From: a bacterium | Lineage (GTDB): Bacteria; Planctomycetota; Planctomycetia; Planctomycetales; Planctomycetaceae | Direction: 5' to 3' | Assembly: GCA_016124895.1 (NCBI GenBank) | Contig: WGMU01000025.1 | Coordinates: 1 to 46,197 of the forward strand | DNA length: 46,197 nt | Part shown: positions 22,416 to 45,210 of the stretch, in pieces | How positions within the stretch are numbered: the stretch's first letter is position 1 | Layout of the letters: the number at the start of each line of letters is the position of its first letter | Made by a program: the position numbers and the translations under genes | The notes under the pieces: generated by a model | What the model saw: only the letters and a program-made list of their open reading frames with translations | What the model was told of the DNA's origin: nothing | Databases searched by the model: none

Positions 22416-22964
22416 ATGCCTGATTCCCGCAACAGTTCTTCATCCACGAACCGGCAGCAGCAGTTTCAGCGTCTGGTGGACGAGCACTATCGCTCGGTCT
22501 GGCAGTATGTGGCGACGCTGATGTGCGGGGCGGCGGAAGCGGAAGATGTGACGCATCAGGCGTTCCTGCTGGCGTTTGACCGACTGGTCGAAGGGCGGAC
22601 AATCGACAGTCCCGGCCTGTGGCTGAAGGGTGTCGTGAGGAACCTGGTTCGCGAGTGGTGGCGGAAGAACCGTCGGATGCCGGTCGAACTGGCTGATCAG
22701 CTCAGCCGCCTGGCGGAAGAAGCGGACCTCGCGGCAGACGAGCGACGCTCCGAGCAGGAAGCGGCATTGGCAGCGTGCCTCGAAAAACTGCCGGACCATG
22801 ACCGTCACATGGTCCAAGCCCGCTATGAAGACGGTCTGCCGATCACAGAGATTGCCGAGCGGCAGCAGACCAGCGTGCAGACAGCGCGGGTCCGGCTGTT
22901 CCGCATTCGCGAACGGCTGAAGGCATGTGTTGAGTTTACCTTCGCACGGGAGGCCATCGAATGA
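22416..22964 (+). CDS. ECF-type RNA polymerase sigma factor
   Basis: A 182-residue sigma factor. Region 2 is seen in FQRLVDEHYRSVWQYVATL and AEDVTHQAFLLAFDRLV, and region 4 in YEDGLPITEIAERQQTSVQ followed by ARVRLFRIRERLK. The ATG at 22416 lacks a clear Shine-Dalgarno sequence. The gene overlaps the FecR-like gene by four bases (ATGA). In the well-known FecI/FecR pattern the downstream FecR-like membrane protein controls the sigma factor; here that is inferred from coupling. It begins a four-gene overlapping operon with a thioredoxin/PDZ protein and a G8 protein. Confidence 0.92.
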   Translation: MPDSRNSSSSTNRQQQFQRLVDEHYRSVWQYVATLMCGAAEAEDVTHQAFLLAFDRLVEGRTIDSPGLWLKGVVRNLVREWWRKNRRMPVELADQLSRLAEEADLAADERRSEQEAALAACLEKLPDHDRHMVQARYEDGLPITEIAERQQTSVQTARVRLFRIRERLKACVEFTFAREAIE

Positions 22965-29219: not shown

Positions 29220-30410
29220 ATGAAAAGCCAGCCTCAAGCCGCGGTCACATTGTTGACGCTGGCCGACGGCGGGCGGACGCGAGAACTTGCAACGCAGAGC
29301 CCCGCATTCGGTGCCGTCGCAATCATTGCCCTGTGTGGATTGACCATGTTGTTCCACCATGCACAGGCGGCCGAATTCCAAGTCACCGCGCTGGTTCCGC
29401 CACTCGTTCATCCGGCGGCGATTCACGGTGTTGCGCTCAGTCCGGATGGGAAATGGGCGGCCACAGGGTGTTCGGACCATTTCCTGCGGATCTGGGAAGT
29501 CTCCACCGGCAGACTTCATGGCGAACCGTTGCCACATGACGGTGAGGTGTATCCCGTGGCGTTCAGTCCCGACAGCCGGAGTGTTGTGGGTGGGAGCGCG
29601 AACGGTGCGAAGCTGTGGGAGGTCGGCACCGGCAAGGTGATTGCCACACTGCCGCATCCGGGCTTTGTCTATGCGCTGGCCTTCCGACCGGATGGCAAGG
29701 CCATTCTGACGAGCAGTCACGACGGCCCGCAGGACGGCACCGCCCGCTTCTGGGCCGCGAGCAACGGACAACCGATCGGCGACTTTATTGGCAATCGTCA
29801 GCGTTTTTACGCCGTGGCCTTCAGTCCCGACTCGAAGCTGGCCGCCGTCAGTGGTAACGGCAACGTTGCGCATCTGCTTGACGGCCTGACGGGCAAGCCG
29901 AAGGGAATCGAACTGCAACACGACGGTTCGATTCGCGCGCTCAGCTTCAGTCCCGACAGCTCGAAGCTGTTGACGGGCAGCCTCGATGGCTCGGCCCGCG
30001 TCTGGGACGTGACCACAGGCCAGCCGGTCACACCACCGTTCAGACACGACGACCAGATCCGCGCCGTCGCCTTCAGCCCGACCGGCAAGAGTGTTGTCAC
30101 CGCAGGTCGTGATAAGACGGCGCGCTTGTGGGACGCGACGACCGGAACACCGCTCTGCCCGCCGCTGGCGCATCCGACAGAGGTGCGCTGCGTGGCCTTC
30201 AGCCCGGACGGCAGATTCGTGGCGACTGGTTGCTATGGCGATACGGCTCACGTCTGGGACGCCGCTAGAGGTCGGCCCATTGGCTCCACGTTGCAACACC
30301 GCGCCCTCGTTCGCGTGATCGCCTTCGGCCCTAACAGCCGCGTACTACTGACCGGCAGCTTCGACAAAACAGCGCGACTGTGGAAGATCACAGAGGTGGA
30401 AGCAGAGTGA
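29220..30410 (+). CDS. Membrane-anchored or secreted WD40 protein with eight repeats
   Basis: A 396-residue protein from the ATG at 29220; an in-frame GTG ten codons upstream is possible. A signal anchor lies near residues 32-51 (AIIALCGLTMLFHHAQA). I count eight WD40 repeats of the planctomycete type, each with AFSPD/LSPDG and ending in RLWD/RIWE-like strands (VYPVAFSPDSRSVVGG, IRALSFSPDSSKLLTG, ARLWDATTG). Repeat 4 is degenerate. No catalytic domain is attached; in planctomycetes such repeats often form the end of Ser/Thr kinases or serve as scaffolds. It is separated from the G8 gene by about 120 bases and converges with the minus-strand operon beyond 30472. Confidence 0.88.
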   Translation: MKSQPQAAVTLLTLADGGRTRELATQSPAFGAVAIIALCGLTMLFHHAQAAEFQVTALVPPLVHPAAIHGVALSPDGKWAATGCSDHFLRIWEVSTGRLHGEPLPHDGEVYPVAFSPDSRSVVGGSANGAKLWEVGTGKVIATLPHPGFVYALAFRPDGKAILTSSHDGPQDGTARFWAASNGQPIGDFIGNRQRFYAVAFSPDSKLAAVSGNGNVAHLLDGLTGKPKGIELQHDGSIRALSFSPDSSKLLTGSLDGSARVWDVTTGQPVTPPFRHDDQIRAVAFSPTGKSVVTAGRDKTARLWDATTGTPLCPPLAHPTEVRCVAFSPDGRFVATGCYGDTAHVWDAARGRPIGSTLQHRALVRVIAFGPNSRVLLTGSFDKTARLWKITEVEAE

Positions 30411-30471
30411 AGTCGAGCCAGGGTGAGCGGGCTCCGCTGTTGTGCAGCACAGCCGAACGTTTCTCGTGGCC

Positions 30472-33294
30472 TCACTTTGCTCTGAGTTCATAGTCACCCG
30501 GTTCGGCCCGCCACGCGACTTCGCTCGCCGTCCAGGTGACGCCTTGCTCAATCGGTTTCATGACGCCGTCCGCCTGACGGCGTGTCAGGGTAAAGGTTGT
30601 CCCCTCGGGAAACTTCGGCTGCATGGCGTGCAATTGAAGTCGCAACGTGACCGGCTTGCTGACCTTCAACCCGACCGTCTTGTCGCCAGGGGATACGGCG
30701 ATTTCGATCGGCTCGCGGTAGGCGGGGATTTCGGCAACGGCCCGCAGGATCTCATCACCGGCCTTGCGACCGAGGTCTTCCGAGTGAACGACAGCGGTGG
30801 GCCGTGATCTGGAAAGCCGGTTCCAGATCTGCAGACGAAATCCGTCTGGCTTCAACCGCTCGACCTTTGTCTCGAACCAGCGGCTGCCGGGCGACATGTC
30901 GAGCGCCCAGCGGACCATCGAACTGCCGGCGTTGGACAGCTCAAGCCGGCGATACGGCCCGGTGCCAGCGCTGAGCACACGGCCCGGCTCGGGGCGAGTT
31001 GCGGCCGACCATTCGATCAACTCACCAACCAGCCCGCGGTAGAATTCGAAGTCGTCGTGCAGGTAGATACCGATCTGGTTGCGGAGACTCGTGTGTCCGC
31101 CGTGGTTGCAGGCGCGGATCGCCGTCACGTTGTCGGTCTCGAACGTGTCAGAGATTTGTCCGCTGAACACGAACCAGCGGGCCTGAGCGGCGACGAACTG
31201 AGTCGCTTTGTCGCGACCGATGACATCAAGCATCTTTTCGGACCAGAGCGAAGTGACTCCTCGTTCGTAGGCCACGGGATTGTAAACCGTGTCATACTTG
31301 TCGGCCTGCGGAGTCCATGACCACGCCGGGAAATAACCATGCGGATTCCGCTCGACCAGCCGCATCAGGTCGTCAAACAGAATTCTCGCGGCGTCGATAT
31401 AACGCGGATCCTTTTCCAGCGAATACGCGTGCAGCATCAGCGGGATCGTCGGCACGCAGCGGCTGGGCCATTCGGCTTCCAGGTTCGTGCGGAACTGTTC
31501 CAGATCGAACGGCGTGCCGCCCAGCAGTTCCAGTCCGAAATCGGCGAATTGCACGCAGGCCCGTCGGTAATCATCCAGCGGGACAGGCAGGTCGAAGTAC
31601 TCCATCGTGCGAATGGAAACGGGCATCAGCGCCGCGTGATAACACGGATTGCCGGTCCAGCCTTCCAACCGGCTGCCATCCGGTTGCTGACCACCGCCGC
31701 TCGAAGGCTTCATCCCCGTGGCCACACTGCGGCGGATGATGTCGATGTAAAAGTCCGTCCGCTCGGTGTGGTTCTGGAACCGATCGCGCAGCGCCTTGTC
31801 GATGGCCGCTCTGTCGTCGGCGATCACGGCGGAGACGACCTTCAGCAGACCGATCTCCGACGACTGGCCACCGCGTCCGATTTCATCCATCAGCGAGACC
31901 AGCAGCGCGGCGACTTGTTCCTCGCTGAATGGCCGATCGATCCAGCCCGAGGCCGCGCCGAGCACGCTGCGCAGCGCGCCTTCGGCGGATTCCGCCTGCT
32001 CGCCGACACCCAGCACGTACTGCCGATAGAGCCAGTCGTTATTCGCCTGCCAGCCGAGACTGTTCGCAGCTCCATCCGATGACTTCTTCAGAGCAAGATG
32101 TCCGTTGACGATGCCCAGCCCCTCGCGAGTCATCAGTCTCGCAATGGCCGAATCGTCGATCTGATGAAACCAGCGCAACGCCAGCCTGCCATCCTCGACG
32201 TCCGCCCGCGGTTCCTTGTTCGGTCCTTCGGCGGTGACCGTGAAGGGATTGTTGCCGTAGCCGGTCGTCAGCGGCGTGGCAAAGAAGAGATGCGCCGCCG
32301 TGAAGCCGCGATCCCCGACCTGATGCACATACCAGGGTGCGTCCCAACTCGGCCCGCGAACCTGCGTGAAGCCCTCGACACCGTCAGGCGGAGCGAGGAT
32401 CTCAAGCTTTTGATGCCCGCCTCGATAACCGGCCGGCTCGGTCAGGCTGTAACCTTCCAGCGCACAGTAAGCTCCTTCAGGGAACAACCAGTACGTCGAC
32501 TGCCAGCGTTGCGTGCCGCCTTTGCTCCGCGGCGTTTCGCCGGTCACCGTCAGCTTCGTAATAATTGCCTGAGTCGCTTCGATCGTGAACGGCCGGGAGA
32601 AATCGGCACGACTGACAGTTCCGGTCGCAGCGCCGGCATCGAAGCCCGCCAAACGAAACAACTCCCGGCCCTGCCACGACAGACTGAGGCGATCGGGTAA
32701 CCCGGCGATATCCAGGCCCCCTTGCTTCACGCTGGTGCGCTCACTTACTTCGCTGCTGCGCCAGACAGTGTGGTGCGGCTCAACCTGCTGCTGGTCATGG
32801 ATGCGGAGTGTCAGCCGCTGCTTGCCGAATGCCGCGACCTGGTAACGAAGCAGATACATGGCCGCGCAAACCGAGTCACCATGCGTGCGTGCATCGTCGT
32901 CCTCGGACTTCAGCTTCCCGCCCAGTTGCGGAAGATGCTCGACAGCCCAGCGGATCTTCTCATCGCGAGCAGTCTTCACGTCCGTCGCATCACCGGCGGC
33001 ATGATTCAGCGGCGCGTAGCGGTGACCCCAGTCGGCACGGCCTTCGCGCGCCTCGCGCCACGTCATCGAATCCCAGACGAAATAAGGAACCTCCCGCCCT
33101 GCGGCGTCGACGAACTTTACGGACCAGGGATCGGCCAGTTCGCCGGGCTCGAATTTCGCACGGACGAAAACGTACGGACTTTCGTTACCGGCTTGCGCCA
33201 GATGAACCTGAAGCTCGCGCGGCGCGGCAGATACGAAATCCGCCGCCGCGAACGACAACGCGAACAATACAGCAGCAACAGCCAGCTTCTTCAT
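30472..33294 (-). CDS. Large secreted protein, possibly a polysaccharide-active enzyme
   Basis: A 940-residue exported protein. ATG 33294 has GAGGA seven bases upstream and opens the signal MKKLAVAAVLFALSFAAADF. The N-terminal third looks beta-rich (LQVHLAQAGNESPYVFVRAK, VPYFVWDSMTWREAREG). The middle is helical with repeated aromatic and Arg/Asp pairs (GWTGNPCYHAALMPVSIR, NPHGYFPAWSWTPQADKYDT) as in alpha/alpha-toroid lyases or hydrolases, and the C-terminus is beta-sandwich. The layout and length resemble RIFT-barrel/exo-rhamnogalacturonan lyase-like proteins, but I cannot prove that family. It is the last gene of a sigma-controlled operon, 10 bases after DUF1501, so it may be the operon's substrate-facing product. 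Confidence 0.75.
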   Translation of the reverse strand: MKKLAVAAVLFALSFAAADFVSAAPRELQVHLAQAGNESPYVFVRAKFEPGELADPWSVKFVDAAGREVPYFVWDSMTWREAREGRADWGHRYAPLNHAAGDATDVKTARDEKIRWAVEHLPQLGGKLKSEDDDARTHGDSVCAAMYLLRYQVAAFGKQRLTLRIHDQQQVEPHHTVWRSSEVSERTSVKQGGLDIAGLPDRLSLSWQGRELFRLAGFDAGAATGTVSRADFSRPFTIEATQAIITKLTVTGETPRSKGGTQRWQSTYWLFPEGAYCALEGYSLTEPAGYRGGHQKLEILAPPDGVEGFTQVRGPSWDAPWYVHQVGDRGFTAAHLFFATPLTTGYGNNPFTVTAEGPNKEPRADVEDGRLALRWFHQIDDSAIARLMTREGLGIVNGHLALKKSSDGAANSLGWQANNDWLYRQYVLGVGEQAESAEGALRSVLGAASGWIDRPFSEEQVAALLVSLMDEIGRGGQSSEIGLLKVVSAVIADDRAAIDKALRDRFQNHTERTDFYIDIIRRSVATGMKPSSGGGQQPDGSRLEGWTGNPCYHAALMPVSIRTMEYFDLPVPLDDYRRACVQFADFGLELLGGTPFDLEQFRTNLEAEWPSRCVPTIPLMLHAYSLEKDPRYIDAARILFDDLMRLVERNPHGYFPAWSWTPQADKYDTVYNPVAYERGVTSLWSEKMLDVIGRDKATQFVAAQARWFVFSGQISDTFETDNVTAIRACNHGGHTSLRNQIGIYLHDDFEFYRGLVGELIEWSAATRPEPGRVLSAGTGPYRRLELSNAGSSMVRWALDMSPGSRWFETKVERLKPDGFRLQIWNRLSRSRPTAVVHSEDLGRKAGDEILRAVAEIPAYREPIEIAVSPGDKTVGLKVSKPVTLRLQLHAMQPKFPEGTTFTLTRRQADGVMKPIEQGVTWTASEVAWRAEPGDYELRAK

Positions 33295-33304
33295 GCGATC
33301 ATCC

Positions 33305-34615
33305 TCACAGCAATTCACGAATCACTTGTTCGTCCTTGTCCACAATCCGAATGGGGCGGCCGTTCGGTGCGATGACTTCCTTTCCATAGTCGATCTCCAG
33401 CAACCGGCAGACGGTCGCCATGAAGTCCTGAACCGAGATCGGACGGTCGGTCACTTCCTGTCCCTGGCGATCGGTCGCTCCAACAGTCTGCCCACCCTTG
33501 ACTCCTCCGCCCGCCAGCAGCGTCGTCCAGGCTTTGGCATAATGATCTCGACCGCCGTTGCGGTTGATCCGCGGCGTGCGGCCGAATTCGCCCATCCAGA
33601 CGATCAGAGTGTCATCGAGCAGGCTGCGATCGTGCAGGTCGCTGAGCAGTGCTGACAGGCCCTGATCGACCTGTGTCATCAGCGTCCGCGTGTTGTCGGC
33701 GACGTTTTTTTCGTGCGAGTCCCAGTTGGCCAGATAGACTTCGACGAACGGTACACCGACCTCGACCAGCCGTCGCGCCAGCAGGCAGCCACGACCGAAG
33801 TCGCTGTTCCCGTAAGCGTCCCGCACACGGTCGGATTCGCCATCCAGATTGAATGCCGTTCGCCGATCGCTGCGCATCAACCGCACAGCCGCCGCCAGAC
33901 CGGCCAGATGCGCGTCGGCCGCCGGGGCGAGCGTCGCCTTTGCAAATCTCTGTTCGAGATGATCGAGCAATCCTGTGCGGCGATCGAACTCGGCGGTTTC
34001 CACACGAGGCGTGGCGTTGTCCAGGCCCTGGCTGGCGTCGGCCAGCACGAGAGGCTGGTAACGCGGGCCACGATAACCGGCGTCGCGCAGCACGTCGTGT
34101 TTGGTCAGCGGAGTTCCCGTCACGATGAAGTTGGGCAAAGTCGCATCCGACTCGCCCAGTTCCGCCGCAACCGTCGAACCGAGCGTTGGATAGGTCACCC
34201 CTCCGAAGCCCGGCCGGTAGCCGGTGTGCATGTAGATTCGCGCCCGGTCGTGATCGGCTTCGGGTGTGCTCATCCCGCGCAGCAGCGCCGCATACTGCAT
34301 CCAGCGCGAGAGCTGCGGAAACTTCTCGCCGAGCTGGATTCCGGGCACCGAAGTCTCGATAGCACCGAGTTCGCCACGTACATCGGCGGTGGCTTCCGAT
34401 TTTGGATCGAACGTCTCAACGTGACTTGGACCTCCATCCATCCAGAGCAGTACGCATGACTTGCGACGCGTGTTCGGTGACTTGTCCTCAGCCGCTCGCG
34501 CCGCCAGCGCGCCAAGCCAGCCCGATGCCGACACCCCGGTCACTCCGGCCGTTGCCAGCCGCATCAACTCGCGGCGTGTTGGTGTCAGCGGAGACTTCTT
34601 CTGCTGCGAAAACAT
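33305..34615 (-). CDS. DUF1501 family protein with Tat signal (operon copy)
   Basis: A 436-residue exported protein of the DUF1501 family, which has an alkaline-phosphatase/sulfatase-like fold. ATG 34615 has GAGG seven bases upstream. Tat motif TRRELMRLATAG near residues 14-25. Family motifs present: LLWMDGGPSHVETFDPK, YMHTGYRPGFGG, FVEVYLANWDSHEKN and GEFGRTPRINRNGGRDH. The biochemical function of the family is unproven; it is nearly always paired with DUF1549/DUF1553 proteins, as here (20-base gap upstream). Only 10 bases separate it from the next gene, so it is clearly part of one operon. Confidence 0.95.
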   Translation of the reverse strand: MFSQQKKSPLTPTRRELMRLATAGVTGVSASGWLGALAARAAEDKSPNTRRKSCVLLWMDGGPSHVETFDPKSEATADVRGELGAIETSVPGIQLGEKFPQLSRWMQYAALLRGMSTPEADHDRARIYMHTGYRPGFGGVTYPTLGSTVAAELGESDATLPNFIVTGTPLTKHDVLRDAGYRGPRYQPLVLADASQGLDNATPRVETAEFDRRTGLLDHLEQRFAKATLAPAADAHLAGLAAAVRLMRSDRRTAFNLDGESDRVRDAYGNSDFGRGCLLARRLVEVGVPFVEVYLANWDSHEKNVADNTRTLMTQVDQGLSALLSDLHDRSLLDDTLIVWMGEFGRTPRINRNGGRDHYAKAWTTLLAGGGVKGGQTVGATDRQGQEVTDRPISVQDFMATVCRLLEIDYGKEVIAPNGRPIRIVDKDEQVIRELL

Positions 34616-34635
34616 GATTTACCTCACTGGATCGT

Positions 34636-37600
34636 TCAGTGGTTGAGCAGGAACTCAGAGCTGTTGAGCAGCGTCCAGAGCAACCCGGACGACGCCTTCC
34701 GTGGATCGGGCGATCCGTCGAAATAGCGCTGTACCAACTCCAGTTCCTCACTGGTCGGGCGGCGCGAATACGCGGCCAGATACAGCCGCTCAATGCTGTC
34801 AGCCGGCTCGTCGTGCGATCCTGCAAATCGCTGGACTCCGGAAGCGCCGTCGTCCAGCAACGAACCGTTCATCAGGCGCAGAAACTGAGGAATCCCCTGG
34901 TTCACCACGCTGCCTGTGTTCTCATCCGCAACCGACGCAAAGAAGCGAACAAACTCGTCACGCGAGACTTCGGGAATCGGATTGACATGGGCCACCGTCA
35001 CCGACTTCTGCTGTCCGCCTTTCGCCACCGGCGGATACAGAACGATGCTGAGCGAGTCGTAGAGCACGTGCGGACGAATCACGCGCACCGCCATGTGGCT
35101 GAACAACTCGCTGTCCATTTCATTGGCTGCCACCGGCCGACTGGTCCGCTGATAAGTCCGGCTGTTGCAGATGCAGCGAATCAGATGCTTCAGGTCGAAA
35201 TCGGAATCGACAAACTCGACCGACAGCCGCGCGAGTAACTCGGGATGCGAAGGCGGGTTGCCTGCCTGGAAGCCGTCGAGCGGATTTACCAGTCCGCGTC
35301 CGAAGAAATGAGCCCATAGCCGGTTCACCGCGTTCGCAGCGAAGAACGGATTGTCTTGTCCCGTGGCCCACCGGCTGAATCGCGGCCGATAGGGGCCGTT
35401 GTCCGGCCAGTCGACGTCCTCACCCTGCAGGAATCGCGCCTTGACGATCGCTCCGGATTGTTTGCCTGCGGATGCTGGCAACGTGATGGCCGGTCCTAAT
35501 CCGGACGGCACGACGAACGACTCCGGCAGGCTCGTTGTCTCGCTTTCATCCGGTGCCGCTTCGGTCAACGTCCAGCCAGCCGGATTCTTGCCGTCGGTGT
35601 ATCCTTTGCGCAAGCGGCTGAAGAATGCGGCGGTGCCCCAGAAATCCGTTTGTTTCCACGGGGCGAACGGATGGTCGTGACATTCAGCACAGCGAAGCTG
35701 TACGCCCCAGAACAGTCGCGACGTGGCATCGGCCACCAGGTTGGCCCGCGGTTCCTGATTCTCGCTGTTGGCCATGATGAAACCGGTCTGCGGCTGCTCG
35801 CGGAGTTTGCCTTCCGCTGTCAGCATGTCGTCGACCATCTCGTTCCAGCCGCGATTTCGGTTGAACTGTTCGGTCAGCCATTCGGCGAACGGATCGCGTC
35901 CCGTTTTGGCCTTGCCGGTTTCGCGGGGACCGATCAGTTCGCGCCAGATGATCGCGAAGTTCGCACCGTACGACGATTCGGCCAACAGTGCATCGATCCA
36001 CTTCTGCCGCTTGTGTGGATCGTCGCTGTCGAGAAACGCGATCGTTTCGTCGTACGTCGGAACGCGCCCGGCGATGTCGAGCGTTACGCGGCGCAGGAAC
36101 TCGCCATCATCAGCCAGCGGCGACGCCGGGACGCCCGAGTCCATCAAATGATTCTCAACGATGCGGTCAACCGCTTCCGCCACCGGCAACGGGTCGCGGC
36201 TGGAGACCCGGCCAACCGAAGCTTTGGGCGACGGCTTTTTGACATCATTCGACGACGGAGATTTCGCCGGCTGCGGCATGCGCCTGCTGGTCGGAGAACC
36301 ATCTTTCGCAGGCTTCGCGGAGTCTGGGGCCTTCGATGTCGGTTTTTTCGGTTGCGGTTTGTGAGTCTCTTCTGGCTCTTTGCCTGCAGTGTCTGTCTTC
36401 GCAGCAGGCTTGTTTTCTGCAGGCTTCCCTGCAGGAGACTTGTCTGGCGGCTTTCGGGGCGTGTCTGGTACATCGCCAGCGCCCTTCTGCACCAAGCGGA
36501 AGCGAGCATCAATCGCCCGATCGGTCTCTGCTGCGGTCCAGATCTCCACCCGGTAGTCCACGGTCGGACGCTCGCCATCCGGCTTGACCCCGCGGTAACT
36601 CAGCCGCGTCTGATCCGTCAACCGGATTTCCCGCTTCAGCGGCGCATCTCCTTTGCGAAAAACCTCGACTGTCATTGAGCGCGCGTCGTCGGCCACTGCA
36701 ACGACGATCCCGGAGATGTCCGGCTGTGGGTTGCCAAACTCGATGCGGACGGCCTGATCAGGCGATTTTTCACTGAGTGTTGCGACCGCCCGATATCCGA
36801 CCGTGGGCCGGTCGCCATCGCGACTCACACCGTAATACGACAACTCGGTGGCAGCGCTGATCTCAACTGTTCGCTGCGGAGCCGGAGCGTTGGGTTTAGG
36901 GGGATCCCCTTCGAGCGTCAGCCGTGTGCCGTCGGCTTCGACCTTCATCACACGTCCGGAAAACATGGGCACCTTCTGCGATGAAAACACCCGGCGTTCA
37001 CCTGCGGCGACCGGCACCTTGACCGTCTGTGTTTCGTCCTGCACGTCGACCTGTCCGGCCAGTACCGCGACGGTCAACAGCACTAAAGCCTGGGGCTGCA
37101 TGGCAGGTTCTCCTGACAGAAAAGTCTCTTGAAGATCAACCTCGAACTGCGTGTCCCGCCCCAGAATCGTTCCTGCGGACGTTTGAATCTGAATTGGCTC
37201 ACCTGCTGTGGCACGAAATTGCCCCCCGCCGGACACCAGTCGAATAAGCGGTGATGTTCCGCCGCGATGAAAAACAGCCGTCGTGGCGGGTTCCAGCACC
37301 GCATCTGCACCACCGGCCAGACGCAGCGACGCCGTGCCCGGGCCGCGCACTTCGAACGAAGTGTCAAAGGGAACTGCCGATGTCGCGACGCCATCGACAG
37401 CGACCTGCCCGGACAAAACTTCACTGGCGGCTTGCGGTTTGTGGCGCACCGGTTCGCGCCAAAAGAGGACACTCATGACGACCAGTGCGGCAATGGTGGA
37501 TGCAGCGACCGCTACCCGCCTGGCCATCCCGATTCCGGACCTTGCAGGCTGGACGCTCCGCGGCAATTCGATCTCCGTTCGCTGCTGTGCGAAGTACTGC

Positions 37601-37761
37601 TCCAGCATCACGTCCAGCCGACAGGCCCGAGCCAGCTCGTCCGACAAAACGGGATCGGCAGCCAGCAGGCCGCCTAGTTCTCTGGTTTCCTCATCGGTGG
37701 CGCACTGGTCGAGATACCGGCCGATCAGATCATCAGCGTGAGTTCGATTGGAATCGGCCAA
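34636..37761 (-). CDS. FecR-like domain fused to DUF1549/DUF1553 cytochrome-type protein
   Basis: A 1041-residue multi-domain protein. The start is the TTG at 37761, with GGAGGAG seven bases upstream inside the sigma gene's last codons; the longer open frame to 37875 overlaps the sigma gene and looks non-coding. A cytoplasmic helical part (residues 1-80) and one membrane helix (83-101) precede a FecR-like domain (GQVAVDGVATSAVPFDTSFE, IQTSAGTILGRDTQFEVDL). Two copies of a beta module follow at about 300-365 and 372-415 (DGDRPTVGYRA, DGERPTVDYRV). A Pro/Lys-rich linker spans about 430-515. DUF1549 follows (EFLRRVTLDIAGRVPTYDET) with CAECH near 688-692, then DUF1553 (NAVNRLWAHFFGRGLVNPLD). FecR plus DUF1549 in one chain implies the sigma factor is tied directly to this periplasmic system. 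Confidence 0.88.
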   Translation of the reverse strand: MADSNRTHADDLIGRYLDQCATDEETRELGGLLAADPVLSDELARACRLDVMLEQYFAQQRTEIELPRSVQPARSGIGMARRVAVAASTIAALVVMSVLFWREPVRHKPQAASEVLSGQVAVDGVATSAVPFDTSFEVRGPGTASLRLAGGADAVLEPATTAVFHRGGTSPLIRLVSGGGQFRATAGEPIQIQTSAGTILGRDTQFEVDLQETFLSGEPAMQPQALVLLTVAVLAGQVDVQDETQTVKVPVAAGERRVFSSQKVPMFSGRVMKVEADGTRLTLEGDPPKPNAPAPQRTVEISAATELSYYGVSRDGDRPTVGYRAVATLSEKSPDQAVRIEFGNPQPDISGIVVAVADDARSMTVEVFRKGDAPLKREIRLTDQTRLSYRGVKPDGERPTVDYRVEIWTAAETDRAIDARFRLVQKGAGDVPDTPRKPPDKSPAGKPAENKPAAKTDTAGKEPEETHKPQPKKPTSKAPDSAKPAKDGSPTSRRMPQPAKSPSSNDVKKPSPKASVGRVSSRDPLPVAEAVDRIVENHLMDSGVPASPLADDGEFLRRVTLDIAGRVPTYDETIAFLDSDDPHKRQKWIDALLAESSYGANFAIIWRELIGPRETGKAKTGRDPFAEWLTEQFNRNRGWNEMVDDMLTAEGKLREQPQTGFIMANSENQEPRANLVADATSRLFWGVQLRCAECHDHPFAPWKQTDFWGTAAFFSRLRKGYTDGKNPAGWTLTEAAPDESETTSLPESFVVPSGLGPAITLPASAGKQSGAIVKARFLQGEDVDWPDNGPYRPRFSRWATGQDNPFFAANAVNRLWAHFFGRGLVNPLDGFQAGNPPSHPELLARLSVEFVDSDFDLKHLIRCICNSRTYQRTSRPVAANEMDSELFSHMAVRVIRPHVLYDSLSIVLYPPVAKGGQQKSVTVAHVNPIPEVSRDEFVRFFASVADENTGSVVNQGIPQFLRLMNGSLLDDGASGVQRFAGSHDEPADSIERLYLAAYSRRPTSEELELVQRYFDGSPDPRKASSGLLWTLLNSSEFLLNH

Positions 37762-37762
37762 G

Positions 37763-38281
37763 TTACATCTCCTCCGCCAGACGCAGCCGCCGCTCAATGC
37801 ACTCGCGCAGCTTGCCGCGAATTCGCGACAGCGTCTTGTTAACCGCGTCCAGAGTGCTGCCCACATGCTGTGCAATCTGTTGCAACGAGTGTCCCTGCTC
37901 GTACTTCAGCACCAGCAGCGTGCGCGACTTCTCCGGCAGTTTGTCCAGACAGTGCTCCAGCGCGTCGCGTCGCGCGTCGAATGGCTCCTCGGTTCGGTCG
38001 AACGCAGCCAGCAGGACAGGAATCGCTTCTGCGGGCAGCGCCTTATCCCAGCGCTCACCGCGGTCCAGCCGCTGCAGCAGCTTTTTCGCAGCGATCCCCC
38101 GCGCCCACGCTCCGAACGACCGGCTCTCGTCGAATCGCTCGAACTCGCGCCACAACACGAGTGCCGTTTCCTGCAACACGTCTTCGCGAGCCGCTCGTTC
38201 CCGCACGACAGAACCAATGAACGCGCGCAGGTCGTCCTGATGCTTCAGAAACTGAATCAGAAACTCTTCCTCGTCTTTCAC
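37763..38281 (-). CDS. ECF-type sigma factor, probably the Rhodopirellula/Verrucomicrobium family
   Basis: A 172-residue sigma factor. Region 2 reads FLKHQDDLRAFIGSVVRE and REDVLQETALVLWREFERF, with the family's SFGAWARGIAA; region 4 reads YEQGHSLQQIAQHVGSTLD and TLSRIRGKLRECIERRL. GTG 38281 is preferred because GGAGG lies eight bases upstream; GTG codons at 38302 and 38296 are alternatives. Its stop is two bases from the TTG start of the FecR/DUF1549 gene, whose ribosome site is inside this gene. The arrangement suggests that the fused FecR-like domain is its regulator. Confidence 0.92.
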   Translation of the reverse strand: MKDEEEFLIQFLKHQDDLRAFIGSVVRERAAREDVLQETALVLWREFERFDESRSFGAWARGIAAKKLLQRLDRGERWDKALPAEAIPVLLAAFDRTEEPFDARRDALEHCLDKLPEKSRTLLVLKYEQGHSLQQIAQHVGSTLDAVNKTLSRIRGKLRECIERRLRLAEEM

Positions 38282-38438
38282 GCCCTCGACCTCCACAAGC
38301 ACCTTCCAGGATCAGGTCGACACTGGACATGGAAAATGTCAGGAACGCTGATTCGTGCCCCGTTTCCGTCAACTGTCCCGCTGAGAATGTCATTGCCCGG
38401 CTGGGAGTTTCGGCAAGTCGGCAGTCATCCACAGCACT

Positions 38439-38454
38439 CTGCCGCGAGCGGCAG
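38439..38454. repeat. Perfect palindrome upstream of sigma gene
   Basis: CTGCCGC, GA, GCGGCAG give a 7-base stem with a two-base centre, 157 bases upstream of the sigma start. It may be an operator for the sigma operon or a simple dispersed palindrome. The 38282-38592 stretch otherwise holds no gene; GTAACGTTTTG (minus strand, 38502-38512) is noted separately. Confidence 0.4.
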
Positions 38455-38592
38455 GCGCAGAACTCCTGCCGGGCGGCAAAGCGACGACTGGAGGGTATGC
38501 ACAAAACGTTACTCGGACTTTCAATTTGAAAACTGCGCGATAACGCTGGACAGCCATGAAGAATCTCAGCGGTCCGGGTGGTCTCAAAAAAC

Positions 38593-38623
38593 AAAAAAGG
38601 CCCATGAGAAAACTCACAGGCCT
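38593..38623 (-). terminator. Intrinsic terminator of the monocistronic DUF1501 gene
   Basis: On the minus strand AGGCCTGTGAG, loop TTTT, CTCATGGGCCT, then TTTTT. The 11-base stem is complete if two G-T wobbles are allowed. It begins 42 bases after the DUF1501 stop at 38666, the ideal place for a rho-independent terminator. It is the clearest terminator in the window. Confidence 0.9.
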
Positions 38624-38665
38624 CGGCTGGGATTGCATATTCTATGTTTGATCCGGCGCGGCGAA

Positions 38666-39970
38666 TCAGACCAGTTCTTCAATCGGTTTGCCGTGCTCGA
38701 CCATGTAGGTTGGTCGGCCGGCCTGGTTTGTGAACTGGATACGACGATCGATGTTCAGCGTCTGGAAGATCGTGGCCAGAAGATCCTGAGGCGTGATCGG
38801 AGTCGTCTTTGGCACGTCCACTTTCTCAGCCGACTCGCCAATAACCTGACCCATTTGCAGTCCGCCACCGGCCAGAGCGAGTGTGCTCAGCGGAGCCCAG
38901 TGGTCACGGCCCGCACCGCCGTTGATTTTCGGAGTGCGACCAAACTCGCCGCTGATCACCAGCAGGATGTCATCGGACTGACCACGAAGAGCGAGGTCTT
39001 CAACCAGTGCGGCAACCGCTCGGTCGACCTGCGGGCCGAGGTTGTCCATGGCCGCCTTGATGCCGCCGTGCATGTCCCAGCCGCCGAACTGCAGGGTGAC
39101 GAAGCCACAACCGGCTTCACACAGACGGCGGGCCTGCAGCAGTTGCTGACCGAGTCCCGTGCCGTATCGATCGACGACTCGCGGGTCTTCGTACTTCAGG
39201 TCGAATGCCTGCTGCGATCGGCTGAGGATGATGTTGAAAGCCTGCTGGTCGAACGCATCCAGACCGTCCATCACCTTGCTGCGATCGATATCACGTTTGA
39301 CATTGTCGATGCCTTCCAGCAGCGACCGTCGAGTGTCCAGCCGGTCCTTCGCAACGTTGAGGGCCATGTTGCGACGGGCTTCTCCACCGGAATCAAACGG
39401 GCCGAAAGCCGTACCCAGGAACGCGGGGCCGTCAGCGTAAATCCCGCCGAGCCGCACGTAGGTCGGCATCCCGGTTTCCGGATGGTTCGTGCCTCGGACG
39501 CGGGACACGATCGAGCCGATTCCAGGCCGGTCGGACGCGGCCCCGTTATCCGCCAGCCGGTTGTCGTAGCCGGTCATCACATAGTGCGTGCCGCCCGAGT
39601 GGCCACTGTTGGTGTGAGCGAACGAGCGGACGAACGCCATTTTGTCGGCCACTCCTGCCATGCGTTCGAAGTTGCCGCCCAGCGTGACACCGGGCAGGTT
39701 CGTTTTGACTTCACCAGTAACACTCCGGTATTCGGCCGGAGCCGTCATTTTTGGATCAAACGTCTCGACATGAGTTGGCCCTCCGCCCAGCCAGAGCCAG
39801 ATCACAGACTTGCCATTCGAAGCCCGACCGTTTTCTGCGGCCTGAGCATTTGACCGCAGCGTGTCTGCCAGCGTCAGTCCTCCCAGTCCGAGAGCACCAA
39901 CCTGCAGAAAATCACGACGCGTCGTTCCTTCACAGTTTTCTCGACACCGGGAAGTAGCAAGTTTCAGCAT
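38666..39970 (-). CDS. DUF1501 family protein with Tat signal (second copy)
   Basis: A 434-residue DUF1501 protein. ATG 39970 has AAGGA eight bases upstream. Tat motif TRRDFLQVGALGLGG. Family motifs: IWLWLGGGPTHVETFDPK, HYVMTGYDNR, TLQFGGWDMHGGI and SGEFGRTPKINGGAGRDHW. It differs considerably from the operon copy at 33305-34615 and belongs to the subgroup usually placed with DUF1549/PSCyt1 proteins and WD40 cytochrome proteins. Such a WD40 protein lies upstream on the same strand (40276-45132), but a 305-base gap with two hairpins intervenes, so it may have its own promoter. A clear terminator follows. Confidence 0.96.
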   Translation of the reverse strand: MLKLATSRCRENCEGTTRRDFLQVGALGLGGLTLADTLRSNAQAAENGRASNGKSVIWLWLGGGPTHVETFDPKMTAPAEYRSVTGEVKTNLPGVTLGGNFERMAGVADKMAFVRSFAHTNSGHSGGTHYVMTGYDNRLADNGAASDRPGIGSIVSRVRGTNHPETGMPTYVRLGGIYADGPAFLGTAFGPFDSGGEARRNMALNVAKDRLDTRRSLLEGIDNVKRDIDRSKVMDGLDAFDQQAFNIILSRSQQAFDLKYEDPRVVDRYGTGLGQQLLQARRLCEAGCGFVTLQFGGWDMHGGIKAAMDNLGPQVDRAVAALVEDLALRGQSDDILLVISGEFGRTPKINGGAGRDHWAPLSTLALAGGGLQMGQVIGESAEKVDVPKTTPITPQDLLATIFQTLNIDRRIQFTNQAGRPTYMVEHGKPIEELV

Positions 39971-40275: not shown

Positions 40276-43200
40276 TTATTCTCCAATGGTCAGCGTCTTC
40301 AGCGTTTGGCCGTTGTTTCCGTTCCACAGGTAAACTTTGCCGTCCGCGGTTCCGGCTGCGACGAGGTTGCTGTCAGGCGTGATGTCGACGCTGTGCAGCC
40401 ACGCAGACGCTCCGCCGAAGTTCCGGAAGTTGCCGCCGTTGGTGGCCGTGTGCATTCGCACGAGCTTGTCACCACAGCTTGAGACAATGTTGTCCGTCTC
40501 GCCGATGTAGCGAACAGCCGTCACGTGCCTGCCGAAGTTGGGGATCGTCCGGCTCTGGTCTCCTGTTTCAGGATCCCAGACCTTGATCGTGTTGTCAGCG
40601 GCGGCCGAAACAAGCGTGCTGCCATCACCCTTCCATGCGAGATCGAGCACGTAGTTCGTATGCCCTTCCAGCCGTCTGAGCGGGTGGCTGCTGGCGACAT
40701 CAAACGTGCGGATATATTTGTCCGCCGAACCGGACGCGATGCGTTTACCGTCTGGCGAAAACCGTGCTGCATAAATCACATCGTCATGAGCCTGGGGCAG
40801 GAAGAGTTGCCGGACTCCGTCTGCGACGTTGAACACGAGCAGTTCGCCGCTGCGAGACGGAGTGCCTCCGGCCACGAGCAGGCGGTCGGCTTCGGTCGTG
40901 AAATCAAGCGACGTGACTCGATGCGAAATCAACTGCGGCTGGTCGACCGCTCCGATCGTGCGCTCCAGTCCCCAGCCAGGATTCAGTTCCCAGACACGGA
41001 CGGACTGATCGGTCGAACCGGTGACGATGGCGTCATCATCAAGGAACGTGACACAGCCGGCCGATGCCGAATGTCCAGCGAAAGCCGCTAAAGCGGTGCC
41101 GGTTTCGCCGTCCCATGTGTGGATGCTGGAATACTCGCCGCCACTGGCCAGCAGTCGCCCGTCCGGCGAAAACGCCAGCGAGCGAACCGCCAGGTCCGCT
41201 TCCTGCGACAGCTTGTTCGCCTCTTCGAGTGCCTTCTTCGCAGCTTCCAGATCCGCTTCGAGTCTGGCATGAGCGTCCTTTGCAACAGGCACAGCCGCCT
41301 TTGCCTCTTCCAGTTCCCGCGCGGCGATGACCTGCTGCTGCGATGCCAGATTCTGAGCCGACTGCGCCGTCGTCAATGCGGCCAGCGCATCGGTGTACGG
41401 CTTCTGCGTCTGTGTGACTTTCTGCGTCGCCTGATTCGCTGTATTCACGGCTGTCTGTGCAGCCTGCGTCGGAGCCTGCACGGCCGCCGCCAGCTTTTGC
41501 GATTCCGCCTGAGCCGCCTGCACCGCCGCAGTCGCATCCGTCGCGGCCTTCTTCAACTCCGCGTTGTCGGGTGATGCGTTGGATGCAGTCGTCAACTGAT
41601 TCGACTTCGCTACGGCCTGCTGCACGGCTTCTGTCGCAGCCTTCGCATCTTCTTCTGCGCGCAGCTTCGCAAGGAGCGCATCCTGAGCTGCCTTCGATGC
41701 TTCAATTGCAGCTTTCTCCGCCGCTACCTTTTCCGCCATCGCCTTATCACGAGCAGCCGTCTTTTCCTGCACGTCCTTGCTGGCAGCGGCCAGAGTTTCA
41801 TCGGCCTTCTTCGCCGCTTCCGTTTTGACTGGCAGGTCTTTCTCGACAGCATCGAGCTGCTGCTTTGCCGCGTTCACCCGGGCCTGGGCGGCGTTCTGCT
41901 GCTGCGTCGCGCGAGCCACTCGAACCTTCCGCTTCACGTCTCCGCGCATCTCGGCGATCTGCTGGCCATTGATGTTCCACAGCTTCGCCGTATGGTTGTC
42001 GCTCGCCGAAGCGAGGCGCTGTCCGTCCGGACGCACCGCCACCGCAGTGACCGCCCCGCCGTGGTTGTACTGGCCAAGCTGCTGCGCGCTCGCGAGATTC
42101 CAGCGCCGCGCCGTTGCATCCAGGCTGCCGGAAAACACCTCCATCGGAGTGCCCGGCAGCGCCGCGAGCGACGTGACCTGATTGCCATGACCGGGAATCT
42201 GTCGCATCGCATGAGTCGTCCACGTCATCAGTGAATCCGCATCCGCCGACAGGACGTGTCCTTTCTCACCGACAAGCACGAGCCCGGTCACAGGCTTTGC
42301 GTGCTGGGTGAATCGTTGCTGCAGCGCACCTGACTGCAACTCGAACACCAGCGTCGCCGGCTTGTCTCCCGCAGAGCCGGCCAGCACCGAAGCTCCATCG
42401 AGTGAGAACGACACGCTTTTCACCGGACCGGGAAAACCCGTCAACTGCTGCGGACCGAAACCGCCGCCGTTCGTCTGCCACAACCGCACGACGTTGTTCT
42501 CTCCAGCCGTCGCCAGTGTCTGCTCGTCGGGTGAAATCGCCAGCGAGTTGATCGCCGCACCGTGATTCGTCGCAAACGTCTGCTGGCCGTTCGCCGTTGA
42601 ATACCCGCGGAACGAGCCGTCCTTGCTTGTCGCGAAAACTGTCTGACCGTTGGAGTGAACCAGCAGCGACGTGATCGCCTGCTGGTTGCCGTCCAGATGC
42701 CGCACAAACCGCAGCGGTCGCTGGGCGAGCATTCCGGACTTATCACCAGTAAGCAGCCGGTCGAGCTGAAAATCAAACACTGCCGCCGTCAGTGACGCAT
42801 CGGCTGACGATTCGAGCAACCGTCCGCTCGCCACGTCCCAGACGATCAGCTCGCCTTTGGCAGTGACCGAAAGCAGCCGATTGTCGTCCTGAGAGAAAGA
42901 CACCGAAGCCGGAGCTTCCGCATGACCGGTCAGCGTCTGCAGGACCTGACCATTGTTGATCTGATAAATGCGAACGAGCTTGTCATCGCCGGCGATTGCG
43001 AGCTTCTGCCCGTCGGGGCTGAGCGCCGCCGCGGTCGGCGTTGCCGGATGGTTGAATGCGCGAGTCTGACTGCCGTCGTCCGGATTCCAGAACCTCACGG
43101 ACTTGTCCGCCGACACGGAATACGGCTGAGTCCCTGGCCAGAATCCTGCCGAGACGATCGATCCAGTGTGCCCTTCAAAATCCTTGAGCACCGCGGCGTC

Positions 43201-45132
43201 GGCCACATTCCACAACCGCAGCTTGTTGTCCGCAGTCCCACTCAGAACCTGACTGCCACTGGAAACGAAGGCCACCGCAGTAATGCTGCCGGTTGAACCT
43301 TCCAGCCTGATCTGTTCCGGCTGCTGAGCGTTCGCCGGGTTCCAGATGCGCACCGTCCTGTCTGCCGATCCAGTCACCAGCCGTGCGTTGTCTGCGGAGA
43401 AAGCAATCGCCGTGACCGCTGCCGAGTGCCCTGTCAGAGTATGGAGCAACTGGCCGTTTTCAAGATTCCGCACAAAGACGACGTGCTTTCCATTGGCCAC
43501 GCCAGCCACCGCAGCGAGCTTCCGCGAGGGGCTCACGACAATTTCAGACACCGGCGCGCCGACAGTCCCTTCAAACGCCACTGTTTGCGGCAGAGCCAGA
43601 TTCCACAAAGTGATGCCACCGTTCTCGACGCCGGTCACAAGCTGCCTGCCGTCTGCCGAAGAAGCAACCGCCGTTGCCGGCACAGCGTTCGTGTTCGCCG
43701 TCGCGCCCGACCAGCGGGCGATCAGTTTCTTCCCGGCGACATTCCACAGACTGACACTGCCATCGGCCGCAGTCGTTGCCAGTTGAGGCACCAGCTTTGA
43801 CAACGCCTCCGTGTTACCACCGGCGGCTGCGACGGCGACATGATCGACGACGAATGCCATCGAAGTGGGAACGCCGTTGTCGAGTTTCCATGTCACCAGC
43901 TCTCTGTTGTCATCCGCCGCGATGACACGAACCGTCCCATCTGCCGCACTCATGGCAACAAACCGACGATCACCGCTGACGGCAAGCTGCTGCAGATTCG
44001 GCAATCCCACCGCCAGTTTCTGCGGAGCTGACGACGGCAGCGTCCATGTGCGCAGCAGATTCTCAGCTCCCCCCGAGACCAGCAGCGGTTCGGGATTCGG
44101 CTGCTGTTCTGTCGGCACCGCGGTCGCCACGAGTTCGACCGCATTCACAGCGACAGGCGTCTCGATCAATCCAGACAGAGAACCATCCGCTGTATTCCAC
44201 ACGCGAATCGACTGGTCAGCCGATCCGGAAACCAGTCGCGTACTGTCCGTCGAGAATTTCAACGAGGTGACTCGGTCGGTATGTCCGTTGAGTGTCGCTC
44301 CAGCCGCTCCGGTTTCTGCGTTCCACAGACGAATTGTGTGATTCGGTCCGGACGACGCGATCCACTTGCGATCAGGACTCACCGTGAGTGCGGTCACCTC
44401 CGCTCCCGTGGCGAGCGTCGTCCGGACGACGTCGCTCGGCCGCCGCCACAGCTTGACTTCACGAAAGCTGCCTGACGCCAGCAGGTCGCCGTCGATGCTG
44501 ATCGCCAGTGATTGAACGAGGTCACGATGAGCAATCTGCGGACTGCCCTCACCCGCCGATAGTGCCGGATCGCTGAGCCGAGTGACCAGCTTGCCGGTCG
44601 GCACATGATACAGGAACAACTGATTGGCCCGGCTCGCCGCGACGTACTGGCCGTCGGGTGTGACGGCAACGGCATAGACCGGTCCGATCGTTTTCGCCAG
44701 AGCCTGCCATTTCTTCGGCGAGAGCGTTGCCACGCCGCTGCTGCCGCGTGCCCCCTGATCGATCCACAGCTTCAGCAGTCCGAGTTCCTGAGACGTCAAT
44801 GGTTTCGCCGCGACGTCATTTCCGGCCGGAGGCATCACCGGTTCGTCCTGATGCGACGCCACCTTCAAAATCAGGCTCACCTCTCCCTTTCCAGGAATCG
44901 CCGCCGGTCCAGTGTCGCCCCCCTTAAGAATCCCCTGTGGAGACTCCAGCACGAGATCACCCTGCTTCTCCGTCAGGCTGTGACAAGCCAGACAGTTCTT
45001 CTGCAGGATCGGCAGAATGTCCTTTTCGAAAATCACCGGCTCGGACCGCTGCACATTCGCAACAGGAATCGGCGCCGCCTGACCTGAGTTCAAGGCAGCA
45101 ATCAGTATCAATAAAAAGGAGAACCGTCTCAC
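40276..45132 (-). CDS. Giant periplasmic cytochrome C/WD40 protein with coiled-coil insert
   Basis: A 1618-residue exported protein. GTG 45132 starts the signal VRRFSFLLILIAALNSGQA; a longer frame to 45204 is possible but adds polar residues before the signal. A planctomycete cytochrome C domain follows, with LQKNCLACHSLTEKQGDLVL, the typical VMPPAGND and LGLLKLWIDQGA. Then come WD40-like repeats: by eye I count 21 before and 7 after a coiled coil of about 245 residues (roughly 1066-1310; Ala/Gln/Lys/Glu heptads such as VARATQQQNAAQARVNAAKQ). Many repeats are canonical (TGHSAAVTAIAFSADNARLV, SADRTVRIWNP), some degenerate. Likely a large periplasmic scaffold linking heme-type chemistry with protein or polymer binding. 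The neighbouring upstream gene also encodes an Ala/Gln coiled coil. Confidence 0.93.
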   Translation of the reverse strand: MRRFSFLLILIAALNSGQAAPIPVANVQRSEPVIFEKDILPILQKNCLACHSLTEKQGDLVLESPQGILKGGDTGPAAIPGKGEVSLILKVASHQDEPVMPPAGNDVAAKPLTSQELGLLKLWIDQGARGSSGVATLSPKKWQALAKTIGPVYAVAVTPDGQYVAASRANQLFLYHVPTGKLVTRLSDPALSAGEGSPQIAHRDLVQSLAISIDGDLLASGSFREVKLWRRPSDVVRTTLATGAEVTALTVSPDRKWIASSGPNHTIRLWNAETGAAGATLNGHTDRVTSLKFSTDSTRLVSGSADQSIRVWNTADGSLSGLIETPVAVNAVELVATAVPTEQQPNPEPLLVSGGAENLLRTWTLPSSAPQKLAVGLPNLQQLAVSGDRRFVAMSAADGTVRVIAADDNRELVTWKLDNGVPTSMAFVVDHVAVAAAGGNTEALSKLVPQLATTAADGSVSLWNVAGKKLIARWSGATANTNAVPATAVASSADGRQLVTGVENGGITLWNLALPQTVAFEGTVGAPVSEIVVSPSRKLAAVAGVANGKHVVFVRNLENGQLLHTLTGHSAAVTAIAFSADNARLVTGSADRTVRIWNPANAQQPEQIRLEGSTGSITAVAFVSSGSQVLSGTADNKLRLWNVADAAVLKDFEGHTGSIVSAGFWPGTQPYSVSADKSVRFWNPDDGSQTRAFNHPATPTAAALSPDGQKLAIAGDDKLVRIYQINNGQVLQTLTGHAEAPASVSFSQDDNRLLSVTAKGELIVWDVASGRLLESSADASLTAAVFDFQLDRLLTGDKSGMLAQRPLRFVRHLDGNQQAITSLLVHSNGQTVFATSKDGSFRGYSTANGQQTFATNHGAAINSLAISPDEQTLATAGENNVVRLWQTNGGGFGPQQLTGFPGPVKSVSFSLDGASVLAGSAGDKPATLVFELQSGALQQRFTQHAKPVTGLVLVGEKGHVLSADADSLMTWTTHAMRQIPGHGNQVTSLAALPGTPMEVFSGSLDATARRWNLASAQQLGQYNHGGAVTAVAVRPDGQRLASASDNHTAKLWNINGQQIAEMRGDVKRKVRVARATQQQNAAQARVNAAKQQLDAVEKDLPVKTEAAKKADETLAAASKDVQEKTAARDKAMAEKVAAEKAAIEASKAAQDALLAKLRAEEDAKAATEAVQQAVAKSNQLTTASNASPDNAELKKAATDATAAVQAAQAESQKLAAAVQAPTQAAQTAVNTANQATQKVTQTQKPYTDALAALTTAQSAQNLASQQQVIAARELEEAKAAVPVAKDAHARLEADLEAAKKALEEANKLSQEADLAVRSLAFSPDGRLLASGGEYSSIHTWDGETGTALAAFAGHSASAGCVTFLDDDAIVTGSTDQSVRVWELNPGWGLERTIGAVDQPQLISHRVTSLDFTTEADRLLVAGGTPSRSGELLVFNVADGVRQLFLPQAHDDVIYAARFSPDGKRIASGSADKYIRTFDVASSHPLRRLEGHTNYVLDLAWKGDGSTLVSAAADNTIKVWDPETGDQSRTIPNFGRHVTAVRYIGETDNIVSSCGDKLVRMHTATNGGNFRNFGGASAWLHSVDITPDSNLVAAGTADGKVYLWNGNNGQTLKTLTIGE

Positions 45133-45210
45133 GGCTTCACCGCCCAAAAATGAGTGATTCAGATTCACGGAACTCTGATCCTGGTGTCGATCAGCCTTCC
45201 CCACTTGTTT

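Follow-up and report, generated by a model that had tools for sequence, protein, structure and literature searches.

A putative FecR-like sigma regulator continuous with a DUF1549-DUF1553 protein in a planctomycete operon, and its relation to other fusions of this kind

RsgI of Clostridium thermocellum is a membrane-spanning anti-sigma factor with a cytoplasmic sigma-binding end, and a carbohydrate-binding domain or a glycosidase (GH10) domain can serve as its outer sensor, according to the sections of the source consulted (PMC12203970). Of the systems compared here, it comes nearest to being a precedent for an anti-sigma factor that carries an enzyme-like domain. A comparable layout is encoded in the stretch analysed here (hereafter the window), which comprises 46,197 nucleotides of contig WGMU01000025.1 (assembly GCA_016124895.1) from a bacterium of the family Planctomycetaceae. 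In it, the gene of an extracytoplasmic function (ECF) sigma factor is followed directly by a gene for a 1041-residue protein, in which a putative FecR-like regulator is continuous with DUF1549 and DUF1553 domains. The likeness to RsgI is one of architecture alone, and RsgI, as far as the same sections go, differs in its SigI-type sigma factor, its autocleaving periplasmic domain and its phylum. As in FecI/FecR and PupR, the gene lies directly behind that of an ECF sigma factor and encodes a head, one predicted membrane helix and a FecR-like domain; unlike in those systems, the C-terminus runs on into beta modules and a DUF1549-DUF1553 unit. IutY of Pseudomonas putida is another sigma signalling protein made as one chain with one membrane helix; there, however, the regulator is fused to the sigma factor itself (PMC9249621, in the portions available), whereas the window encodes the sigma factor separately and joins the regulator to an enzyme-like domain. 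With the PSCyt2-PSD1 (DUF1549-DUF1553) proteins the window protein shares two domains of nearly full length, a conserved CxxCH motif and an adjoining DUF1501 gene. Separate PSCyt2-PSD1 copies mostly have a hydrophobic N-terminus of their own, whereas the window protein has none just before DUF1549, and its DUF1549-DUF1553 unit would be exported, if at all, by the membrane helix of the regulator. The reading preferred here, with a probability of roughly 0.6, is that the protein acts as a one-chain transmembrane regulator of the adjacent sigma factor and that its exported part is one of the enzymes of the operon that encodes it, much as in RsgI.

The chain is ordered as anti-sigma-like head, predicted membrane helix, FecR-like domain, two beta modules, Pro/Lys-rich linker, DUF1549 and DUF1553 (Table 1). 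An earlier note, made from the letters of the window, had described the protein as the usual separate regulator fused to DUF1549/DUF1553. This description was borne out by a 1041-residue frame without a stop, in which both domains are above their Pfam cut-offs and nearly complete (DUF1549, 152.5 bits, profile positions 2-208 of 209; DUF1553, 128.5 bits, 2-243 of 244). The haem-binding-type CxxCH motif reads CAECH, and the linker ahead of DUF1549 passes in a continuous frame without a signal peptide. The duplicated module and the Pro/Lys linker of the same note were likewise recovered. Aligned to each other, the two modules score 95, whereas none of 500 shuffles exceeded 46, so that they form a genuine internal repeat; their beta nature is read from the sequence only. 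The sigma factor matched NCBIfam TIGR02989 (Sig-70_gvs1) with 146.7 bits (cut-off 124.55) over model positions 1-158 of 158. Its start is probably the GTG at 38281, with GGAGG 8 bases upstream; a longer frame opens at GTG 38302, and the TIGR02989 match begins at residue 12 of that frame. The sigma stop (TAA, 37765-37763) is followed after a gap of one base by the TTG of the fusion gene at 37761; the TTG had been placed two bases after the stop, which is right for its first base (+2) and not for the gap. GGAGGAG does precede the TTG, by 7 bases, and the spacing fits translational coupling, as had been proposed in saying that the two proteins are made together.

Residues 1-460 were searched in three overlapping sets of 59 genomes, 392 genomes of the phylum and 170 genomes of the family, and matches were found in 5, 19 and 15 genomes, respectively, the genome of the window being counted each time. 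A sigma gene lies directly upstream on the same strand at 36 of 37 loci encoding such FecR parts (two matches of the family search, G074:C99 and G098:C530, are left out of this count). The one locus without a sigma gene in view, L112, runs off the contig end, and L189 has two sigma genes, the second being directly upstream of the FecR frame. A profile of 14 regulator-half sequences including that of the window (A1) matched two solved structures: 4m0h at E 1.4e-8, which was deposited under the description of a putative anti-sigma factor, and, at E 1.1e-6, 6ovk, which we take to be PupR. Designed Pizza proteins also scored with A1 over a short stretch, between and below these two matches, and were taken as noise. 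Pfam FecR was found at E up to 0.1 in 13 of the 14 members of A1. By homology and neighbourhood, and not by the Pfam threshold, the N-terminal half is a sigma-linked FecR-like protein.

The outer parts of such proteins seem to vary. In genome G344, a FecR protein adjacent to a sigma gene (L113, 1477-3660) carries instead a fused VIT domain and, with a score short of the cut-off, one of von Willebrand A type; its frame continues past the locus. The FecR chassis seems to carry differing outer modules. Comparison with other sigma-linked FecR proteins gave no support for a relationship to the beta modules of the fused protein: module 2 scored 46 against the window's other FecR protein (maximum of 200 shuffles, 47), and the other five comparisons scored lower. 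On contig C50 of the window's own genome, a 2247-residue protein (L061, 3642-10385) contains a FecR domain (49.7 bits) and has a sigma-like gene (32.7 bits) about 0.9 kb upstream.

With TIGR02989, six sigma genes of the window's genome reach more than 120 bits, and four of these pass the cut-off. A FecR match lies just downstream of five (that of the window being sub-threshold), and the sixth, on contig C10, is followed by the gene of P0005, a protein composed of a head, a membrane helix, a linker, DUF1549 and DUF1553. No FecR barrel was detected in P0005 by Pfam, and beta modules were not seen in fusions of this C10 type. These fusions occur in at least 74 of the 170 family genomes, namely in 73 with a listed match starting at or before query residue 26, and in G105, which has a head match and a sigma gene. 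Five of the 73 matches are marked with one internal stop, which in L078, L079 and L082 precedes the real start. Among the 28 listed family genomes, 24 have the C10-type fusion (21 full-length matches and 3 head matches in loci). A sigma gene is directly upstream in all 30 C10-type loci of the first set, and upstream of the fusion in 20/20 wider loci (17 of C10 type and three of family f5 in the same class), 11 of the 17 genomes being shared with the 30-locus set. In an alignment of 17 C10-type fusions, the CxxCH motif and several residues of the head do not vary. A DUF1501 gene precedes the sigma gene in 15 of the 20 wider loci, follows the fusion in two and was not seen in three, two of which are on short contigs. 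In 10 of these 20 loci a second DUF1549/DUF1553 gene stands ahead of DUF1501, which means that the regulator often bears a copy of an enzyme from its own operon.

The window fusion thus resembles the C10 type in its sigma gene, related head, single membrane helix, linker, DUF1549-DUF1553 unit and usual DUF1501 gene in the row, and differs from it in that DUF1501, and often the second DUF1549/DUF1553 gene, precede the sigma gene in the C10 type, and in the clade of its DUF1549/DUF1553 region. The heads of the two types were linked by hhalign (window-type against C10-type profile, probability 95.7 in local and 87.7 in global mode), and the window-type head profile detected the C10 protein (E 7.7e-6) and the fusion of G020 (E 2.6e-4). 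Several sigma-linked FecR proteins matched one or other head profile weakly or not at all, the large FecR protein of C50 was matched by neither, and four controls (a DUF1501 protein, a WD40 protein, a headless DUF1549 protein and a sigma factor) gave no match with either. A profile of the A2 fusions, searched up to E 1, matched no solved structure. The G020 locus (L049, 6992-8842) encodes a sigma factor and a fusion of head, membrane helix, linker and DUF1549 that is cut by the contig end; a DUF1549/DUF1553 gene and a DUF1501 gene lie upstream, in the order typical of the C10 type. In the three f5 loci (L174, L175 and L176), sigma genes are followed by proteins with a membrane helix, DUF1549 and DUF1553, the cytoplasmic heads of which were recognised by neither head profile. 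The order in L175 and L176, sigma, fusion and DUF1501, is that of the window.

The relationships of 111 DUF1549/DUF1553 regions were examined in two trees, a first one of 101 rows (regions longer than 620 residues left out) and a slower one of 67 rows (without the redundant fusions and eight of the loci, and with four further rows). Rows labelled as having no head were those unmatched by the two head profiles. In the 101-row tree, the 48 C10-type fusions group as a single clade with support 100, and the window row falls in a separate clade of 14 rows (98) with 13 proteins without a recognised head; two label changes are needed on this tree, against a mean of 33.9 for shuffled labels. In the 67-row tree, the window row is again placed with 13 proteins without a recognised head in a 14-row clade (100/97), and the f5 fusions adjoin a headless f5 paralogue (100/97). 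Within that clade, the precise position of the window row is not well supported. Both trees rule out the window fusion as a member of the C10 clade. The separate clades of the window and C10-type fusions imply at least two independent joins, and the f5 fusions possibly represent a third. A fusion unique in kind is ruled out by the C10 family, and the picture of a singular oddity is not supported, given the share of family genomes with a C10-type fusion and the further form in f5.

Several results weigh against the preferred reading. Pfam FecR reached 18.7 bits with the whole protein and 22.9 bits with its first 265 residues, both below the cut-off of 24. The head is without a Pfam name and gave a weak match (E 0.09) to 3hug_B, presumably the anti-sigma factor RslA. 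The window protein was absent from the matches of the C10-type head profile up to E 10. An AlphaFold model computed without an alignment reached a predicted local distance difference test (pLDDT) score of 37 and lends no support to the topology. No sigma-70-type promoter site was found in 30300-39000, and a motif search upstream of the sigma gene in 37 distinct C10-type and f5 loci yielded no promoter evidence; words common to these upstream regions far exceed shuffles and were read as coding sequence of the DUF1501 end. Finally, the exact FecR-DUF1549 fusion was found in this genome only, among the matches listed in the searches of 59, 392 and 170 genomes. The first of these gaps is closed by the matches of profile A1 and the sigma-adjacent relatives, and the FecR-like part named in the earlier note stands on those grounds, without the Pfam cut-off. 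A search for the FecR plus DUF1549 architecture, which that note had suggested, returned the exact form nowhere else among the matches listed; it also showed a conserved fusion lacking FecR in the same family, with one copy in the same genome.

The rarity of the exact form bears on a second explanation, by which the join is incidental to one lineage, the FecR-like half regulates alone, and the DUF1549-DUF1553 unit is a passive, membrane-anchored enzyme with no signalling between them. None of the 37 FecR-part frames contains DUF1549, 11 of them being incomplete (L106, L111, L112, L113, L115, L116, L117, L119, L125, L182 and L186, which run off the locus or contig), so that for these the absence covers the visible part. 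No match spanning both halves was among those listed in the 58 other genomes, and the linker, some 85 residues long, could leave the two halves uncoupled. In genome G031 (L036) the halves are encoded by separate genes, in the row sigma, a 569-residue FecR protein (Pfam FecR 26.9 bits, above the cut-off), a DUF1549/DUF1553 protein with EF hands and its own hydrophobic N-terminus, and DUF1501, so that G031 makes do with an unfused pair; the same gene order, unfused, is present in G014 (L055) and on contig C181 of the window's own genome (L059). We nevertheless consider this explanation unlikely. A similar join arose elsewhere and is kept, as one clade, in at least 74 of the 170 family genomes, with a sigma gene adjacent wherever this was checked, and a join useless for signalling is not expected to recur next to sigma genes.

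The same unfused relatives suggest how the gene arose. Among the matches listed, the closest DUF1549/DUF1553 relatives are encoded by genes of their own, and most have a hydrophobic stretch before the domain (10 of the 13 nearest separate homologues, which share the window's tree clade); a scan of genome contigs gave a single distant DUF1549 match (L128, 31%). The separate protein of G031 has a similar Pro/Lys stretch directly before DUF1549, which suggests a join point ahead of the linker. Most likely, the window gene corresponds to the second and third genes of a G031-like row, joined; a sigma-linked FecR gene would have been united with a DUF1549/DUF1553 gene already equipped with an export signal. 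A draft genome of 195 contigs, a form unique in the sample and the split form in G031 would also be expected from an assembly or sequence artefact merging two neighbouring genes. Such an artefact is very improbable: the frame is continuous through the linker with no signal peptide between the halves, merging would require the loss of both a stop and the hydrophobic stretch that most of the nearest separate homologues have before DUF1549, and other fusions are present in many genomes.

Under the preferred reading of a one-chain regulator with an enzyme-like outer part, the N-terminal residues (about 75) would hold the sigma factor in the cytoplasm, as the family and the gene order suggest, and one predicted helix would span the membrane. 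The FecR-like domain, the beta modules, the linker and the intact cytochrome-like DUF1549-DUF1553 unit would then lie outside the cytoplasm. The signal might be a changed state of the DUF1549-DUF1553 unit, in the form of its substrate, its redox or haem state, or its DUF1501 partner. The change would be relayed via the FecR domain, probably by regulated proteolysis, and the sigma factor would be freed or activated; the proteolytic step is borrowed by analogy from FecR and RsgI. The sigma factor would then transcribe its own operon, comprising the genes of the sigma factor, the fusion, DUF1501 and the 940-residue protein. Sigma binding, the topology, the signal, proteolysis, co-transcription and the target promoters are all inferred.

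FecR can also activate its sigma factor, and either sign of control is possible. In a third explanation, the N-terminal half is an activator or chaperone of the sigma factor in a FecR-like pro-sigma role, and the fused part times the release of an activating fragment. We regard it as improbable, and the present evidence does not separate inhibition from activation. The heads lack a close match to DUF4880, which we take to be the family of the FecR N-terminus (one of the 14 members, best E 0.099). On the other side, N-terminal residues of Escherichia coli FecR are essential for the activity of its sigma factor and short N-terminal fragments activate it, according to the parts consulted of PMC7406223 and PMC9249621.

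A wider proposition is that planctomycetes have repeatedly made a DUF1549-DUF1553 enzyme of an operon the receptor of that operon's sigma factor, at least two times and perhaps a third time with a different head in f5. We offer it tentatively and would sooner doubt it than rely on it. With a copy of the cytochrome-like enzyme fused to the anti-sigma head, each such chain would report on the substrate of that enzyme, on its redox state or on its DUF1501 partner.

No paper linking DUF1549/DUF1553 with FecR or a sigma regulator was found in the open-access literature; an earlier notice in surveys of planctomycete sigma factors is possible. Jogler 2012 and Wiegand 2020 are reportedly such surveys. 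An account of the Rhodopirellula baltica stress response, in the portions consulted, mentions DUF1549/DUF1553 and also reports ECF sigma factors. RsgI already provides a published case of an anti-sigma factor with an enzyme-like domain, FecR-type regulation is well known, and the version with DUF1549/DUF1553 appears new as far as the consulted parts of these sources show. DUF1549/DUF1553 proteins form a very large uncharacterised family in this genome, with 103 DUF1553 matches, a few of which are pieces of one gene; the functions of such genes were described as wholly unknown in the consulted part of a 2017 paper on Verrucomicrobia (PMC5615132). A sigma-regulator fusion that arose more than once ties some of these proteins to a defined transcriptional switch, and induction of the operon could then be used to seek their substrate or signal. 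It would also bring the enzyme-as-sensor design known from Clostridium RsgI to a distant phylum.

Table 1. Features of the sigma-fusion row and parts of the fused chain (positions in the window)
Feature	Position	Strand	Basis
ECF sigma factor gene, TIGR02989 / gvs1 type	37763..38281	-	NCBIfam match and start site read from the sequence
Fusion gene, 1041 residues, TTG start	34636..37761	-	open frame without internal stop
Helical anti-sigma-like head, presumably cytoplasmic	37537..37761	-	about residues 1-75; common to sigma-adjacent FecR proteins and C10-type fusions
Single predicted membrane helix	37477..37533	-	residues 77-95; hydropathy window 1.65 (threshold 1.6)
FecR-like domain, presumably exported	36967..37419	-	about residues 115-265; Pfam FecR 142-215, sub-threshold
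Duplicated beta module	36460..36957	-	about residues 269-434; self-alignment
Pro/Lys-rich linker, about 85 residues	36187..36441	-	residues 441-525; 16 Pro and 15 Lys
DUF1549 / PSCyt2 domain	35608..36171	-	residues 531-718, E 2e-44; CxxCH at residue 691
DUF1553 / PSD1 domain	34723..35388	-	residues 792-1013, E 4e-37
DUF1501 gene	33305..34615	-	Pfam DUF1501, 370.9 bits; 20 bases downstream of the fusion gene
Gene of a 940-residue protein, family unassigned, signal-peptide-like start	30472..33294	-	ATG 10 bases past the DUF1501 stop
Terminator-like hairpin, 12 pairs and T run	38597..38624	-	consensus scan; between the upstream DUF1501 gene and the sigma gene

The minus-strand row runs in the order sigma, fusion, DUF1501 and 940-residue protein, with gaps of 1, 20 and 10 bases, and the last gene is a probable further member of the sigma operon. 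Neither Pfam nor NCBIfam gave a match to its product at E up to 1, and in the PDB the top match, sc-CC-6-95 (E 0.028), was not convincing; the identity of this product could indicate the pathway. The hairpin upstream of the sigma gene is only suggestive of a possible operon edge, as the scan of the region gave nine sites against a shuffle mean of 6.7. Further upstream of the sigma row lies a pair of minus-strand genes, encoding a 1642-residue WD40 protein (40276-45204), the repeats of which are broken by a long Ala/Glu/Lys-rich stretch, and, after it, a second DUF1501 protein (38666-39970). A second sigma/FecR pair is present on the plus strand of the window (22416-24907). Its sigma gene (TIGR02989, 122.1 bits, just below the cut-off) overlaps the gene of a 648-residue FecR protein (Pfam FecR 40 bits), which is followed by that of a 440-residue protein with a CxxCH motif, the frame of which begins on the final base of the FecR gene.

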